Shown here piece after piece: positions 5,000 to 51,263 of a stretch of DNA of 64,000 nucleotides. Each line of letters opens with the position of its first letter. Position 1 is the first letter of the stretch. The translations under genes were made by a program, and so were the position numbers. This DNA is from Sulfitobacter noctilucae (lineage in GTDB: Bacteria; Pseudomonadota; Alphaproteobacteria; Rhodobacterales; Rhodobacteraceae), in assembly GCF_000622365.1 (NCBI RefSeq), contig NZ_JASC01000014.1, positions 1,240,001-1,304,000 on the forward strand. The letters run 5' to 3'. A model generated the notes under the pieces. It made no database searches. It was given only the letters and a program-made list of their open reading frames with translations, and was not told the origin of the DNA.

Positions 5000-7152
5000 T
5001 GCGACGTCTGATCCTTGTTCTCACATTCGTCTTTACCCTGCCCGGCCTGTTGTATGCTCAGCAAATTGACGCATCCGGTGCCGCGATGCTGATCGCGGAT
5101 GAAGTCTTTATCACCGCAGAGCGCGAGCTGGTTGCCGAGGGCAACGTCGAGGCATTCCAAAACGGGGCCCGTCTACAGGCCAGCGCCGTGCGCTACCGGC
5201 AGGATGATGGCCGCTTGATCATCGAAGGACCGATCACGCTGACACAAGGCGACCAGACGCTGATCTTTGCCGATGCAGGGGAACTGGACGCGGACCTGCG
5301 CAATGGCATCCTGACGGGTGCGCGGCTGATCCTGAACCGCCAATTGCAGATCGCGGCGGCACAGGTGGACCGTGTCGAAGGTCGCTATGACCAACTGTCC
5401 AAAGCCTCTGTCACCTCGTGCAAAGTCTGTGAAGACGGGCGTGCGCCCCTTTGGCAGATCCGCGCCCGGCGCGTGATCCATGATCGGGTAGACCAGCAGC
5501 TTTATTTTGACGAGGCGCAGTTTCGTATTCTGGACGTGCCGGTATTCTATCTGCCGCGGCTGCGCCTGCCCGGGCCCGGCCTGGCCCGCTCCAGCGGCTT
5601 TCTGGTGCCGAAAATCCGCACCACATCGCAGCTGGGCACGGGCGTCAAAATTCCTTACTTCATCAAACTGGGCGATCACCGCGACCTTACCGTCACCCCC
5701 TATCTGTCGGGTGTAACCCGCACGCTGGAACTGCGTTACCGGCAGGCATTCCAGCGCGGGCGCATCACCGTAGACACCGCCGTCACCCGCGATGACCAGC
5801 GCCCCGACAAGACCCGGGGATACCTTTTTGCCAATGGGGCTTTCGAACTGAACCGCGGTTACCGCCTGACATTTGACATCGAGGCGACAACAGATCGCGG
5901 CTATCTCACTGAGTACGACTATTCCGACAAGGACCGACTGGAAAGCAACATCAGCGTCAGCCGCGCCCAGCGTGATCAGTTTGTGCGCGGCACGTTCTAC
6001 AACTTTGAAAGCCTGCGCGCGGACGACATCAACGACAACCTGCCCACCGTGGTGCTGGACGGCGAATACGAGCGCCGGTTCTTCCCTTCCGCACTGGGCG
6101 GTGAACTGCGCTTGCGGCTTGAGGCGCACAGCCACCGGCGCAATTCGGACAGCGATATCGACGGACCCGATGATGATCTGGTGACCGACGGGCGCGATGT
6201 AGCCCGTCTGAATGGCCGGGCAGATTGGCTGCGTCGTTTTACCTATGGCAACGGTCTGGTTGCGGATGTGCAGGCAGGCGTCAGCTTCAACTTCTTTGAT
6301 ATCACGCAAGACGCCAGCTTCGACCAGAACCACGCCGATATCGCACCCCAAGCTGCTGTCGCCTTGCGCTATCCGATGGTGCGGCGCGACGCGGATGGTG
6401 TGACCCAGGTGCTTGAGCCTGTGGCGCAGATCGGCTGGGTGCGTGGCAGCAGGCTTGATATCCCGAACGACGAAAGCACGCGGGTTGAGTTTGACGAGGG
6501 CAATCTGCTGGCGCTGTCCCGCTTTCCGCGGCCCGACAGACGCGAGCGGGGTGTCATCGCGGCGATCGGGGTGAACTGGGCGCGCACCAATCCGACTGGG
6601 TTCGACACGCAACTGACATTTGGTCAGGTTTTTCGGGACGAAGCTGACCCCGATTTCTCACTATCCTCCGGGCTGACGGGCAAATCCTCCAACTATCTGG
6701 TTGCGGCCCAGATCAAGACCACGAACGGGCTGACGCTTAGCGGACGCACCCTGTTTGACAAACAATTCGAGCTTGCCAAAGCCGAGCTGCGCGGAAACTG
6801 GGGTTTTGCCAAGGGGGGCATCGGCGGCTCTTATGTCTGGCTTGACGCAGATGAAGCCGAAGAACGCGATGCGGCGGTCTCCGAAATTTTTCTGGCGGGC
6901 AACTACGACATCAACACCCATTGGCGGGTGAATGCAGATTGGCGTTTCAACTTGGCCGATGACCGTGCAGCGACGGCTGGTATCGGCCTGAACTACACCA
7001 ATGAATGTGTCGACGTGGATATGCGCGTTGCGCGAAGCTATTCTTCCTCTACAGCGGTTGAGCCTACGACCAATTTCGGCTTTAACATCGGTCTCAGAGG
7101 CTTTGCCGCCTCATCGGGCGACCAACAATTCATCCGCTCTTGCAAAAGGTGA
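4999..7152 (+). CDS. lptD: LPS-assembly protein LptD (outer-membrane translocon)
   Basis: This 717-residue outer-membrane beta-barrel inserts LPS into the outer leaflet together with the lipoprotein LptE. The signal peptide covers residues 1-20 and ends LLYA. The OstA/LptA-like periplasmic domain covers about 30-150, and the barrel region starts near 190. Four cysteines stand out: C141 and C144 (CKVC) in the periplasmic domain, C670 in the last part of the barrel and C715 at the C-terminus. This layout parallels the interdomain disulfides of E. coli LptD. The downstream surA is the chaperone needed to fold it. Length is normal for alphaproteobacteria. Confidence 0.95.
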   Translation: MRRLILVLTFVFTLPGLLYAQQIDASGAAMLIADEVFITAERELVAEGNVEAFQNGARLQASAVRYRQDDGRLIIEGPITLTQGDQTLIFADAGELDADLRNGILTGARLILNRQLQIAAAQVDRVEGRYDQLSKASVTSCKVCEDGRAPLWQIRARRVIHDRVDQQLYFDEAQFRILDVPVFYLPRLRLPGPGLARSSGFLVPKIRTTSQLGTGVKIPYFIKLGDHRDLTVTPYLSGVTRTLELRYRQAFQRGRITVDTAVTRDDQRPDKTRGYLFANGAFELNRGYRLTFDIEATTDRGYLTEYDYSDKDRLESNISVSRAQRDQFVRGTFYNFESLRADDINDNLPTVVLDGEYERRFFPSALGGELRLRLEAHSHRRNSDSDIDGPDDDLVTDGRDVARLNGRADWLRRFTYGNGLVADVQAGVSFNFFDITQDASFDQNHADIAPQAAVALRYPMVRRDADGVTQVLEPVAQIGWVRGSRLDIPNDESTRVEFDEGNLLALSRFPRPDRRERGVIAAIGVNWARTNPTGFDTQLTFGQVFRDEADPDFSLSSGLTGKSSNYLVAAQIKTTNGLTLSGRTLFDKQFELAKAELRGNWGFAKGGIGGSYVWLDADEAEERDAAVSEIFLAGNYDINTHWRVNADWRFNLADDRAATAGIGLNYTNECVDVDMRVARSYSSSTAVEPTTNFGFNIGLRGFAASSGDQQFIRSCKR

Positions 7153-7157
7153 TCCAG

Positions 7158-8381
7158 ATGACGTTTTTTACTCAGTTTCGCGGTCTCGCGCTGGCCGGTG
7201 TGCTTGCCTTTGGCGGCACTGCGACGCTGGCTCAGAATCTTTTTGCCCCGGCAGCAAGGGTCGATAATGCGGTTGTCACCGAATTCGAAGTACAGCAGCG
7301 CCAACGCTTTTTGCAGCTCTTGAACGCACCGGGCACCGACCGCGACAGCGCGCTGCAAAGCCTGATAGACGACCGCCTGCGCGCACGGGTTGTCGCCGCT
7401 GCGGGCCTTGTGCTGACCCCTGAAGGACTGGCTGAAGGGGTGACCGAATTCGCCGCCCGCGCCAACCTGAGCCGCGAGGAATTCATCACCGCTCTGGGGC
7501 GTGCCGGCGTCGATGAGGAAACGCTGAACGACTTTGTATCAAACTCGCTCAGCTGGCGCGAACTGATCCGTGCGCGTTACCTCAGCCGTGTGGACATCTC
7601 AGAAGACGAGATTGATCGCGCGCTTGGCAACACACGCTCGAACGGCGACGGCATCCGTGTCCTTCTGTCCGAGATCATCATCCCCGCGCCGCCGCAAAAC
7701 GCCGCCCGTGTGGCAGCACTTGCCGAACGCATCGCCCAGTCCCAGACCGAGGCAGAGTTTTCGCGCTTTGCCAGCCAGTACTCCGCCACCGCGTCGCGCG
7801 GTCGCGGCGGGCGCATGCCTTGGACACCGCTGGAAAAGCTGCCGCCCGCCTTGAAGCCCATTCTGCTGGCGCTTGGCCCCGGTGACGTGACAGCGCCATT
7901 GCCCATCACCAATGCGGTTGCCCTGTTCCAACTGCGCGGGATCGAAGAAACCGGCGTTCCTGCGCAGGTCTATTCCAGGATCGAATATGCCGCCTATTAC
8001 ATGGCGGGAGGCCGCAGCCCCGAAACACTGGCCCAAGCGGCCAAGCTGCGCACCCAAGTCGATACCTGTGACGACCTATACGGCGTGGCGAAAGGCCAGC
8101 CCGAAGAGGTGCTGGACCGTGCCACCCAAGCGCCCGGCGAAATCAGCCAGGACTTTGCCATCGAACTGGCCAAGCTAGATCCGGGTGAGGTGTCGACCGC
8201 ACTGACCCGTGCGGACGGTCAAACGCTGGTGTTCCTGATGCTGTGCAAACGCACCGCCGAGGCCAATGCAACTGCGAGCCGCGAGCAGGTCATCACCGCC
8301 CTGCGCCAGCGCAAACTGCAAGGCTATGCCGATGTGCTGATGGCCGAGTTGCGTGCGAACGCCCGTATCTCGCGGCCATGA
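7158..8381 (+). CDS. surA: Periplasmic peptidyl-prolyl isomerase/chaperone SurA
   Basis: This 407-residue periplasmic chaperone delivers outer-membrane proteins, notably LptD, to the BAM complex. Residues 1-26 are a signal peptide ending ATLAQ. A SurA N-terminal domain follows (about 30-145), then a parvulin-like PPIC domain (about 160-265) and a C-terminal helix region. The ATG at 7158 is chosen because AAGG lies 10-12 bases upstream and the signal peptide starts cleanly there. A TTG at 7140 would add six residues inside lptD. The stop overlaps the pdxA start by four bases. There is a single parvulin domain, as usual in Rhodobacterales. Confidence 0.9.
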   Translation: MTFFTQFRGLALAGVLAFGGTATLAQNLFAPAARVDNAVVTEFEVQQRQRFLQLLNAPGTDRDSALQSLIDDRLRARVVAAAGLVLTPEGLAEGVTEFAARANLSREEFITALGRAGVDEETLNDFVSNSLSWRELIRARYLSRVDISEDEIDRALGNTRSNGDGIRVLLSEIIIPAPPQNAARVAALAERIAQSQTEAEFSRFASQYSATASRGRGGRMPWTPLEKLPPALKPILLALGPGDVTAPLPITNAVALFQLRGIEETGVPAQVYSRIEYAAYYMAGGRSPETLAQAAKLRTQVDTCDDLYGVAKGQPEEVLDRATQAPGEISQDFAIELAKLDPGEVSTALTRADGQTLVFLMLCKRTAEANATASREQVITALRQRKLQGYADVLMAELRANARISRP

Positions 8382-48365: not shown

Positions 48366-48689
48366 ATGAACCTGCCCCCCCAAGTCACCCCCCGTGCGTT
48401 TGAGCGCCTTGCCGAAATCGGTGCCGCCGATCAGGGCAAGGCCCTGCGCGTCGCGGTTGAAGGGGGCGGATGTTCGGGATTTCAGTACGAGATTGACCTC
48501 GATACACCCAAGGACGACGATCTGGTGCTGGAAGGCGCGGGGCAGCGGGTTGTGGTCGATGCCATATCCCTGCCGTTCCTGACCAACGCGGTGATCGACT
48601 TTTCCGAAGAGCTGATCGGCGCGCGGTTCGTGATCGAAAACCCCAACGCGACTTCTGCCTGCGGCTGCGGTACGTCTTTCTCCATGTAG
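48366..48689 (+). CDS. erpA: A-type iron-sulfur cluster carrier
   Basis: This 107-residue protein of the IscA/ErpA/SufA family carries Fe-S clusters to apo-proteins. The three ligand cysteines are present in GGCSGFQY and in the C-terminal CGCGTSF. The ErpA versus IscA assignment is based on its stand-alone position and is not certain. It is convergent with the 362-residue protein gene (8 bases). Confidence 0.88.
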   Translation: MNLPPQVTPRAFERLAEIGAADQGKALRVAVEGGGCSGFQYEIDLDTPKDDDLVLEGAGQRVVVDAISLPFLTNAVIDFSEELIGARFVIENPNATSACGCGTSFSM

Positions 48690-48697
48690 GCCGGGCG

Positions 48698-49786
48698 TCA
48701 GCCTGACTGCACACCACGCGTCATGCCCGCGCGGGCGAACCCTTCGAAAAATGCGTCGAATTTGTCGGTAGATTGCTCTGCCGCCTGTAAAACTTCGCGG
48801 CTGTGTTGGGGCATCTGAGCAATCACCCGGCCCCGCATCCCGCCCCAATCGGCAGATCGTTGTTTGCCAAGGTCGAAAAGACACGTCGACAAAGGCCGCA
48901 GAGCGCCAGCCAAGACTTGCGGCATCGCGAAATGCAGCATGTAGTTTTCCGGTACATTTTGGTCAAATACCTTGGTGCCCCGCACCAATTGCGCCCAGCC
49001 AGATACCAGAAAAAGGTGGTATCCATCCACCGCGCGGGCCGCATCTGCCTGTCCGGTCAGGGTGATTGCGTGATGCACCCGCGCGACCGCGTCGGTCCAA
49101 ACCGCACTGGGTGTCTTGCCTGCAAAGGTCAGGGCTGTGCAAATCTCGGCCAGCAAATCAATATTCTGATCCAGATAGGCCAGGACCCCGGCAAACTCGA
49201 GACTGTTCAGCGCCGCATCGCTTAACTGGGGATCATAACGCCCATACCCTGACAGGTAGAATACGATATGAGTAAGCTCATAGGCGGCCTTTTTATTGGG
49301 CAGCGCAAAGGTTTCAGCGCGCTCGGTAAAGGCCCGCAATCTGGTGTCTAACGCACTCTGGCCCAAGGGCAAAACAGCCCCCCTGCGGGACAGCAAATAT
49401 TGCGCTTCTGCCCGCTGCAAATCCGAAAGCTCAGCCTCCGGCAAACCTGCCTGCGCGACCCAACGGCACAAGGCAGCACCTTTGTTCGCGCCCATACCAA
49501 GGTCTTCGAGATCCAGACAGATCGACAGGAAAAACCTGTAATACTGTGGGAAAAACCGCAGCTTTTCTTCGATCTGGGCGTAGAAGTCGGCATAGACAGC
49601 CAGCGTTTCCGGATTAAGGATTTGGCCGGTCGCAGCCAGAACGCCCAAAAGCTCGGCGTTCTCTTTCAGCCAGAACACATCATCCGGGGCGTGCCGCCGG
49701 TTTGCCACAGCGTCGATCAGCAGGCTAACGCTTCCGGCGGGGTCTTGCAGCGCGGACGGCTGGGGGAAAGAGATCACATTGGACAT
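48698..49786 (-). CDS. Unrecognised 362-residue helical protein, partner of the repeat peptide
   Basis: This protein starts MSNVISFPQP and appears mostly alpha-helical. Segments such as FPQYYRFFLSICLDLEDLGM, KAAYELTHIVFYLSGYGR and LDQNIDLLAEICTAL suggest an alpha-solenoid. There are no membrane segments, signal peptide, Walker motif or metal-binding Cys cluster. ATG 49786 follows AAGAACC weakly; an upstream open frame would enter the hairpin. It is the second gene after the 20-residue-repeat peptide, with a perfect stem-loop between. It may belong to a Rhodobacterales DUF such as DUF6902, from memory and unverified. Confidence 0.7.
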   Translation of the reverse strand: MSNVISFPQPSALQDPAGSVSLLIDAVANRRHAPDDVFWLKENAELLGVLAATGQILNPETLAVYADFYAQIEEKLRFFPQYYRFFLSICLDLEDLGMGANKGAALCRWVAQAGLPEAELSDLQRAEAQYLLSRRGAVLPLGQSALDTRLRAFTERAETFALPNKKAAYELTHIVFYLSGYGRYDPQLSDAALNSLEFAGVLAYLDQNIDLLAEICTALTFAGKTPSAVWTDAVARVHHAITLTGQADAARAVDGYHLFLVSGWAQLVRGTKVFDQNVPENYMLHFAMPQVLAGALRPLSTCLFDLGKQRSADWGGMRGRVIAQMPQHSREVLQAAEQSTDKFDAFFEGFARAGMTRGVQSG

Positions 49787-49815
49787 TAAAGAACCTCGCG
49801 ATGGAGCGGCAAAGT

Positions 49816-49844
49816 CGAAGGTCCGGCGGTGTACCGGACCTTCG
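49816..49844 (-). repeat. Perfect intercistronic hairpin
   Basis: CGAAGGTCCGG and CCGGACCTTCG are perfect 11-bp inverted copies around a 7-base loop. The element begins 7 bases after the repeat-peptide stop and ends 29 bases before the next start. No T-run follows, so it is more likely an mRNA-stabilising or attenuating element than a full terminator. It would allow more of the upstream peptide than of the downstream protein. Confidence 0.7.
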
Positions 49845-49851
49845 CGGTGGA

Positions 49852-50127
49852 TCACACGGATGTTGTGAACAACTCGGTCCGGTCGCCTGCTGCGACTTCT
49901 GATGTCGTGCTCAGCACAGATGTTGTGAACATCTCCACGGCATCACCCGCAGCCATGTCACATGCAGTCGGCGCAGAGCCGGAACTGAACATCTCGATGG
50001 CGTCTCCGGCCATCATGTCAGTGCCCGCCGCGATGGAGCCTGAGCTGAACATTTCAAGGCCGGCACCATTCTCGATGCTGGTTGTGAGAGAGACTTCGGA
50101 AGCAGGTGTCAGTGCAAGTGCGATCAT
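49852..50127 (-). CDS. Acidic Ser/Thr-rich peptide with 20-residue tandem repeats
   Basis: This 91-residue peptide has no Lys, His, Tyr or Trp, a single Cys (C56) and a single Arg (R83). After a 20-residue N-terminus (MIALALTPASEVSLTTSIEN) it consists of repeats with an exact 20-residue period. Motif E-[ML]-F recurs at residues 25-27, 45-47, 65-67 and 85-87, followed by SSGS, SSGS, TTSV and TTSV. Each later unit opens with [MA]AGD. ATG 50127 has AAGGA at the right distance; a TTG six codons earlier lacks one. No known family is assigned. The build resembles multi-core precursor peptides, but no modifying enzyme is recognised nearby. Confidence 0.7.
   Translation of the reverse strand: MIALALTPASEVSLTTSIENGAGLEMFSSGSIAAGTDMMAGDAIEMFSSGSAPTACDMAAGDAVEMFTTSVLSTTSEVAAGDRTELFTTSV
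49855..50067 (-). repeat. 60-bp coding tandem repeat (3.5 copies)
   Basis: Codons 21-40, 41-60, 61-80 and 81-91 of the peptide gene are successive 60-base units without any length change. At DNA level, GATGTTGTGAACA occurs twice and GAACATCTC-type blocks recur at the EMF positions. Adjacent units pair by similarity (units 1-2 and 3-4), pointing to duplication of a 120-base block. Confidence 0.75.
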
Positions 50128-50480
50128 TGTCAGTTTCCTTTTCAAACAAGTCTGAATGCAATCAAAAGTTGCATGACCATCACGATTGCCCGCTAAAAAT
50201 GAATTGAAAACTCCCTAATTTCAGAAGCCGAATTTGAGCGCGATTTGTGCACATAAGAAGGCCGTAACAAGCGGGTGACTTTTCACTTGAACCGAAGCTG
50301 TCCACAGGCGGAAATTTTTCTTACCCACATGCGGATTTTTACGGTTAGAACGGTCAATGACCCGCCAAATACCACCCTTTAGTTGAATTTTTCGAATCGA
50401 ATCGCCCTATGCGGCAGCGCCTTCTTGCCCCTCCGCCGCATATCCGCCATAGCGTGACAAAGCATAAAAGGGCCCGAAAA
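50128..50480. other. 353-base AT-richer divergent region
   Basis: This gap lies between the repeat-peptide gene and xth. It is clearly more AT-rich than its surroundings, with A/T runs near 50195-50220 and 50310-50340. A candidate xth promoter is listed separately. I see no convincing promoter pair for the peptide gene on the minus strand, no tRNA, and no open frame with coding character. TGTCCACAG at about 50300 resembles part of a DnaA box, without further support. Confidence 0.5.
50383..50411 (+). promoter_or_regulatory. Candidate xth promoter
   Basis: TTGAAT at 50383-50388, a 17-base spacer and CCTATG at 50406-50411 lie 69 bases before the xth ATG. The -35 is good and the -10 moderate. 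Confidence 0.35.
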
Positions 50481-51263
50481 ATGAAGATTGCGACCTTCAA
50501 CATCAACGGCATCAAAGCCAGGATCGAAGCCCTTCCAAACTGGCTCGACACCGCGCAGCCGGATGTGGTTTTGCTTCAGGAAATCAAGTCGGTTGATGAA
50601 GCCTTCCCGCGCGAGGTTTTCGAGGACCGCGGCTATAATGTTGAAACCCACGGTCAGAAATCCTTCAATGGTGTGGCGATCCTGTCCAAACACCCGCTGG
50701 AAGATGTCAGCCGTGGCCTGCCCGGCGACGCAGATGACGAACAGGCCCGCTGGATCGAGGCTACCGTGATGGGCAAGCAGAATGCGCTGCGCATCTGCGG
50801 CCTTTACCTGCCCAATGGCAACCCGGCCCCCGGACCAAAATTCGACTACAAACTCGCGTGGATGGAGCGTCTGCACGCCCGCGCCACGGCGCTGCTTGCC
50901 GAAGAAACGCCATTTCTCATGGCGGGCGATTACAACATCATCCCCCAGGCCGAAGATGCCGCAACACCGGATGCTTGGCGCGAAGACGCGCTGTTCCGCC
51001 CCGAGGCGCGCGCGGCCTGGCGCAAACTGCTGAACATCGGCCTGACCGAAGCCTTCCGCGCCCGCACCCAGGGGCCCGGTCATTACAGCTTCTGGGATTA
51101 TCAGGCCGGCGCCTGGAATCGCAACAATGGCATCCGCATTGATCATTTCCTGCTCAGTCCCACATGCGCTGACTTCTTGCGCGACTGTCAGATCGACAAG
51201 GACGTGCGGGGCGGCGAGAAACCTTCGGATCACGTTCCGGTCTGGGTCGAGCTCGACTTTTAA
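50481..51263 (+). CDS. xth: Exodeoxyribonuclease III / AP endonuclease
   Basis: This 260-residue DNA repair enzyme cleaves 5' of abasic sites and degrades one strand of duplex DNA. The exonuclease-endonuclease-phosphatase fold motifs are MKIATFNINGIKAR, LLQEIKS (metal Glu), GDYNIIP (catalytic Asp/Asn) and KPSDHVPVWVEL (Asp-His at the end). ATG 50481 matches the family N-terminus. The open frame continues 24 codons upstream without conservation. The RBS is AGGG. Confidence 0.95.
   Translation: MKIATFNINGIKARIEALPNWLDTAQPDVVLLQEIKSVDEAFPREVFEDRGYNVETHGQKSFNGVAILSKHPLEDVSRGLPGDADDEQARWIEATVMGKQNALRICGLYLPNGNPAPGPKFDYKLAWMERLHARATALLAEETPFLMAGDYNIIPQAEDAATPDAWREDALFRPEARAAWRKLLNIGLTEAFRARTQGPGHYSFWDYQAGAWNRNNGIRIDHFLLSPTCADFLRDCQIDKDVRGGEKPSDHVPVWVELDF

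Follow-up and report, generated by a model that had tools for sequence, protein, structure and literature searches.

A conserved gene pair of a multi-core repeat peptide and a DUF6902 protein in Sulfitobacter noctilucae and its relatives: a likely RiPP-type unit

The two-gene unit and its repeat peptide

The window, that is the whole stretch of 64,000 nucleotides of Sulfitobacter noctilucae DNA analysed here, carries on its minus strand a two-gene unit: a gene for a repeat peptide of 91 amino acids, an intergenic hairpin and a gene for a protein of 362 amino acids that belongs to the Pfam family DUF6902 (Table 1). The spacer between the stop codon of the peptide gene and the next ATG is 65 nucleotides long. 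In the genome collection, the closest named relatives of the window's genome belong to Sulfitobacter and allied Rhodobacteraceae. The pair is antisense and flanked by erpA and xthA (48366-51263), and this site between xthA and erpA is a conserved housekeeping neighbourhood: of the gene groups matched across 62 neighbourhoods, window included, xthA is found in 60, dgt in 43 and erpA in 42. The groups common to at least 10 of the 62 neighbourhoods were inspected by eye over their first 70 residues, and none was recognised as a transporter, a protease or a second maturase. Spread of the pair on plasmids was considered and rejected: the DUF6902 protein of the window has no match in 72,556 plasmid records (E 1e-5).

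Table 1. Positions of the genes, motifs and sites of the two-gene unit in the window
Feature	Position	Strand	Remarks
Precursor-like repeat peptide gene, 91 aa and stop codon	49852..50127	-	four motifs with a 20-residue period; start ATG at 50127, coding as far as 49855, stop 49852-49854
Core motif 1, FSSGS, residues 27-31	50035..50049	-	found by core pattern
Core motif 2, FSSGS, residues 47-51	49975..49989	-	found by core pattern
Core motif 3, FTTSV, residues 67-71	49915..49929	-	found by core pattern
Core motif 4, FTTSV, residues 87-91	49855..49869	-	found by core pattern; directly before stop codon
Intergenic RNA hairpin, 11-bp perfect stem, 7-nt loop	49816..49844	-	arms 49816-49826 and 49834-49844
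DUF6902 protein, 362 aa, probable peptide-modifying enzyme	48698..49786	-	H173, D210, E214 and H257 invariant
Degenerate DnaA-box-like site TGTGGGTAA	50321..50329	-	one mismatch; 202 nt before ATG
Box-like site TGTGGACAG	50298..50306	-	two mismatches; 179 nt before ATG; counted only for spacing
Box-like site TGTGCACAA	50245..50253	-	two mismatches; 126 nt before ATG, 76 nt from first site; counted only for spacing

The peptide had been described as carrying an exact repeat of 20 residues. The period is indeed exact, with phenylalanines at F27, F47, F67 and F87, but the copies are similar rather than identical: partial DNA copies of 21-35 nucleotides are 75-90% alike. A scan of species genomes identified 376 relatives of the DUF6902 protein, of which the best 80 were kept as loci (L102-L181). 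The core set consists of 79 precursors, namely the window and 78 of these best 80 loci; L159 and L164 were left out, and two others are cut by contig ends. The 79 precursors have 475 cores, between two and 15 each (median 6), and one precursor from outside this set (L061) has 20. The 396 spacings between cores are mostly of 21 (185), 20 (161), 8 (21) or 19 (18) residues, with 11 others. The spacings of 8 residues are found in six precursors (L139, L142, L145, L151, L169 and L180). Because cores 8 residues apart occur, a spacing of 20 residues is not required, and what repeats is apparently a short motif and not the whole 20 residues.

Solenoids can have repeats of 19-21 residues, a length found for 364 of the 396 spacings, and the peptide could in principle have a structural role, as a beta-solenoid or an amyloid-like repeat protein, with DUF6902 aiding its assembly or secretion. 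We regard this as highly improbable: the 21 spacings of 8 residues do not fit it, and modelling of the window peptide, the only one modelled, gave no confident structure. The 91-residue peptide is predicted to be disordered (pLDDT 52.0, pTM 0.21), a result that applies to this peptide and not to the long precursors.

The cores follow the pattern G-[DE]-x-[TV]-x-[ML]-F-[ST]-[ST]-[GS]-x, and Ala-Pro often comes next. The commonest are FSSGS (168), FTSGS (69), FTSGL (31), FTTSM (30) and FTTSC (28). Glycine at position -6 (95%), phenylalanine at 0 (95%) and serine or threonine at +1 (96%) dominate the consensus, percentages that lean toward the search pattern because this fixes the small and aromatic residues. 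In the next two places after the core, alanine (57%) and proline (73%, at +6) prevail among the 404 cores with following residues. A core ends the precursor exactly in 71 of the 79 cases; the other eight end otherwise.

Within one precursor the cores are nearly the same: the four residues after the phenylalanine have an identity of 0.944 over all within-precursor pairs (0.890 as the per-precursor mean) versus 0.425 between precursors. Agreeing core residues use the same codon with a frequency of 0.489 within precursors versus 0.377 between them, and agreement is 85.4% in 299 diverged repeat pairs. Since residues agree while codons often differ, the sameness of the cores is kept largely at the protein level and is thus more than the result of recent DNA copying. 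Core type also tracks the divergence of DUF6902 beyond that of xthA: when xthA distance is controlled for, core distance and DUF6902 distance have a partial Mantel correlation of r 0.38 (n=60, permutation p 0.0005), a value that shared ancestry can inflate, and the reverse partial Mantel correlation is -0.02 (n=60).

Pfam searches returned no credible family for the window peptide or five relatives (three of the five had weak matches, E >=0.32), NCBIfam has no family for the window peptide, and no open-access literature with any of the four core strings was found. The multi-core layout itself is known from other systems, for example from the precursors of graspetides, a type of RiPP. In these, as in the Kex2-processed repeat peptides of fungi (PMC7329392), one precursor likewise carries several near-identical cores between linkers. 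Their cores are different, however, and the window pair has a single partner gene, with no ATP-grasp or Kex2 gene recognised nearby.

Conservation of the pair and of the hairpin

The repeat peptide is encoded upstream of DUF6902 in all 80 named loci (the best 80 of the 376 relatives): 79 were identified by pattern search and L159, with a peptide cut by unread bases, by its reading frames. Among these best 80 relatives, the distance from the peptide stop codon to the partner gene is 36-139 nucleotides, with one exception of 342 nucleotides, and 78 of 79 partner proteins are 349-370 amino acids long, the remaining one being read as 300 amino acids. The number of motifs thus varies from two to 15 and the partner stays nearly constant, as the preliminary description had expected of a precursor/partner system. 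The window peptide was matched in 40 of 62 genomes of the genus, its own counted. In all 13 pairs of related peptides that we chose for comparison, dN/dS is low (0.042-0.243, with the highest value for the window peptide and L102): the peptide frame is under purifying selection. Together, the dN/dS values of these 13 chosen pairs and the adjacency in 80 of 80 loci place the pairing beyond chance and rule out a spurious frame.

Of 36 genomes of the genus that were searched for the peptide as well as for DUF6902, 26 have both genes, two have only DUF6902, none has only the peptide and eight have neither (Fisher p 1.5e-6). In each of the two genomes with DUF6902 only, a diverged peptide is present, as judged by eye. 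Seven of the eight genomes without the pair have a close xthA: in six of these, xthA is 68-483 nucleotides from erpA, with no match to either gene, and in the seventh xthA is at a contig edge; the eighth genome (G004) is 64% complete. Beyond the genus, 82 of 295 genomes sampled from the family have DUF6902. In a phylum sample of 299 genomes it is above cut-off in four, each from the family of the window, and none of 14 control genomes carries it. A conserved two-gene precursor/partner unit, proposed before as a candidate, is therefore well supported by the adjacency and the co-occurrence. None of the outcomes named beforehand as speaking against it (an unconserved frame, no purifying selection, separated genes) was seen.

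The perfect 11-bp stem-loop between the two genes, also described before, is confirmed: both arms have 11 nucleotides and are 100% complementary. No long T-run follows it in the window by eye. No stem as long occurred in 60 shuffles of the window gap, and the folding z-score is -3.1. Among 79 gaps, from the window and from loci of the best 80 of 376 relatives, 25 have a stem of at least eight Watson-Crick pairs and 16 have a folding z-score below -2; the median is -0.7. The 25 stem-bearing gaps are those of the window, of 16 loci that are near the window in the similarity ranking or named Sulfitobacter or Roseobacter, and of eight loci from further genera. Compensatory changes are seen in eight of nine consensus pairs, a result that speaks only for the 16 sequences aligned because all of these were chosen for having the stem. 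The hairpin of the window is real, but confined to a minority of relatives; with a stem in only 25 of 79 gaps, a universal attenuator is ruled out, and the hairpin is no constant element of the layout. In the window and in some relatives, it would keep the precursor transcript above the enzyme transcript.

Box-like sites upstream of the peptide gene

The region upstream of the window precursor has no perfect DnaA box; three degenerate sites (Table 1) keep a span of 76 nucleotides. These degenerate sites alone would mean nothing. In the relatives, the word TGTGGATAA (the other strand of TTATCCACA) is present with 88 copies in the 30.4 kb upstream of the precursors of 76 loci and with 10 copies in the remaining 1.40 Mb. 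Perfect TTATCCACA is thus about 400-fold enriched, with 2.89 copies per kb upstream versus 0.0071 per kb elsewhere in the loci. At least one perfect copy is found in 56 of the 76 upstream regions, and 87 of the 88 copies are in one orientation. With up to one mismatch allowed, 58 loci have two or more sites; the distance between the first two is 76 bp in 33 of these loci and 75-77 bp in 41. In PMC6699656, TTATCCACA is called the perfect Escherichia coli DnaA box and served to find origins in Rhodobacteraceae.

In two whole genomes the word is only somewhat commoner than its reversed control (21 versus 13 in G000 and 25 versus 16 in G225). We also considered that the boxes belong to the promoter of xthA. 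A close xthA is present in 23 of 25 family genomes that lack DUF6902, and its 5' end in 22; in these 22, there is no perfect box and one box with one mismatch in the 13.2 kb before xthA, and the explanation was rejected. The gap between xthA and erpA is larger than 700 nucleotides in eight of the 22. The six empty sites in the genus have no box at up to one mismatch. The boxes are not a common trait of DUF6895 genes (see below), because there is one perfect box in seven DUF6895 loci. A second enriched word, GCAAGCGT, is present in 30 of 77 upstream regions of 220 nucleotides, window included, and GTGCAAGCGT in 16 of 77; in L060 and L173 the second word was seen by eye between the boxes and the start codon. 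The timing of the precursor may be set by the replication regulator DnaA; another protein may read the same box sequence.

The partner protein, its DUF6895 relatives and the proposed pathway

The partner was previously described as a helical protein of 362 residues without motifs. The helical part holds: the AlphaFold2 model (pLDDT 93.2, pTM 0.91) consists of helices apart from two short strands. The absence of motifs does not: hmmscan assigns the protein to DUF6902 (PF21843; E 6.6e-141, 469.7 bits versus a gathering threshold of 27), and residues 30-242 also pass DUF6895 (PF21836; 78.5 bits versus a cut-off of 23.8). NCBIfam gave no match for the window protein, and neither database matched it to a hydrolase or ligase family. 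Foldseek with the model returned 0 of 414 matches at E <= 0.001, and a profile search of the PDB returned one match only (E 0.46).

DUF6902 and DUF6895 are separate Pfam families and are distantly related: hhalign aligns the two profiles over 184 columns with a probability of 97.4% (E 1e-11) and 16% identity. Among 65 DUF6902 sequences, the invariant columns include R31, W39, K41-E45, P80-F85, E119, S121-R125, N164, Y169-L171, H173, D210, L211, E214, W230, D254, H257 and W264. When eight DUF6895 proteins are aligned, ten columns are invariant (E75, Y206, H210, F213, D217, G219, D252, E256, Y314 and H315). Invariant Y, H, F, G, D, E and H positions of the two families correspond, and H173, D210, E214 and H257 of DUF6902 are set on H210, D252, E256 and H315 of DUF6895, which are invariant in all eight proteins. 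These four residues may form an active site. The references of PMC13352647 include a title (Shi et al. 2026, ACS Catal.) that reports a lasso-peptide epimerase from DUF6895. The earlier statement that no known modifying enzyme is visible is therefore not supported, given the relation of DUF6902 to a family with an epimerase reported in that title.

The likeness between the two families extends to their gene contexts. In six of seven DUF6895 contexts outside the window's family (L094, L095, L182, L186, L187 and L188), the DUF6895-type gene immediately follows a gene for a small peptide; the weak matches L100, L101 and L183-L185 are not among the seven contexts. L094 has two related 65-residue peptides (751-1350) ahead of its DUF6895 gene, L095 has one peptide (2407-2838) with two cores, GPWYIY and GPWFVL, ahead of its DUF6895 gene, and plasmids of Kitasatospora (L186, 6708-6905), Pseudalkalibacillus (L187, 6398-6658) and Streptomyces (L188, 6329-6685) have one small peptide each. 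So has L182 (2349-2585), a relative from the class of the window, with a DUF6895-type protein that is above the DUF6895 cut-off and just below that of DUF6902 (25.4 versus 27 bits). The seventh context, a plasmid of Streptomyces fungicidicus (L189), has two DUF6895-type genes in a row (5718-7603), the first identified by Pfam and the second by tblastn and alignment, and a small gene of 62 residues one gene farther upstream; a gene annotated as serine hydrolase domain protein follows the two, and a P450 gene lies upstream.

The peptides before DUF6895-type genes span Actinomycetota, Bacillota and the window's own phylum. By eye, a leader-like pattern L..SG[LIV][LIV][DN] seems common to them. 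They have no credible family match (one Pfam match, E 0.099), and no clear sequence likeness to the DUF6902 peptides was seen by eye. The DUF6902 precursors have many Ser/Thr-rich cores, whereas the DUF6895 peptides have aromatic motifs. DUF6895 is above cut-off in six of 200 phylum genomes (four of these being DUF6902), four of 240 class genomes and one of 100 genomes of one family. A wider DUF6895 precursor family is possible, as judged from these sequences.

A RiPP-type pathway is a likely function of the pair. On balance, we favour by a small measure a minimal RiPP-like unit of a multi-core precursor and DUF6902 as its modifying enzyme, most likely an epimerase. The precursor encoded by the first gene would be disordered and consist of a short leader and the tandem cores (2-15, or 20 in L061); DUF6902 would recognise the repeated core and modify each copy, and the cores would be released from the precursor. 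Our best guess for the chemistry, because DUF6902 is homologous to DUF6895, is that a residue within the core or at its end is epimerised by an acid/base site made of the invariant H173, H257, D210 and E214. Several observations speak against this reading: the link to an epimerase comes from a paper title and the relation is distant, with 16% identity; the model of DUF6902 matches no solved fold; the shared neighbour groups contain no recognised transporter, protease or second maturase; the DUF6902 and DUF6895 peptides have, by eye, no clear sequence in common; and eight of the 79 precursors end elsewhere than at a core.

Lasso peptides have a linked leader peptidase and an asparagine-synthetase-like cyclase as their hallmark; no lasso genes were recognised by eye in the groups common to at least 10 of the 62 DUF6902 neighbourhoods. 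The abstract of PMC10406935 describes MslH, the epimerase of the lasso peptide MS-271, as a Ca(II) protein of calcineurin-like fold that epimerises by acid/base chemistry with two His/Asp pairs. The two invariant histidines and the invariant Asp and Glu of DUF6902 are a possible analogy only: a calcineurin-like epimerase is not supported, as the DUF6902 model is helical and has no Foldseek match to a solved fold at E <= 0.001.

The same precursor/enzyme pair could serve another chemistry, with DUF6902 installing a different modification or cleaving between the cores, which we consider rather unlikely. The cores are rich in Ser and Thr and some contain Cys, the residues used by many maturases, and the Ala and Pro after the cores could point to cleavage there; since DUF6902 is a distant relative of DUF6895, its reaction may differ. 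The position of H173, D210, E214 and H257 on invariant positions of DUF6895 and the absence of any hydrolase or ligase match argue against it. It is also unlikely, and slightly more so, that DUF6902 is a non-catalytic partner (scaffold, chaperone or carrier) and the peptide a multivalent disordered ligand with the repeats as binding sites, so that extra repeats would add sites and not product. Such a role would suit the predicted disorder of the peptide, the locus among housekeeping genes and the lack of a linked exporter or protease recognised by eye, and the precisely spaced promoter sequences of the relatives would suit a function inside the cell. Elsewhere, however, DUF6895 genes follow short peptides that have one or two motifs, the invariant His, Asp and Glu suit catalysis, and a member of DUF6895 is reported as an enzyme in the title listed in PMC13352647.

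DUF6902 as a peptide-modifying epimerase, our preferred reading, allows a broader and rather doubtful proposal: an undescribed, roseobacter-wide class of RiPPs, in which a single helical epimerase would put D-residues into the many tandem cores of a precursor and two to three precisely spaced boxes would place the pathway under the timing of DnaA, making the product cell-cycle-coupled and not an ordinary secreted antibiotic. Of DUF6749, DUF6895 and DUF6902, the open-access literature searched names only DUF6895 (PMC13352647), with the word DUF6902 not found, and among the RiPP papers listed for Rhodobacteraceae or Roseobacter no title or abstract beginning mentions the gene pair. The earlier observation of the pair is confirmed and its interpretation partly supported. 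The pair resembles a family of bacterial peptide products that has yet to be studied. If this is true, many roseobacters would make multi-core modified peptides by a simple two-gene pathway, and two Pfam families, DUF6902 and DUF6895, would gain a function at once.
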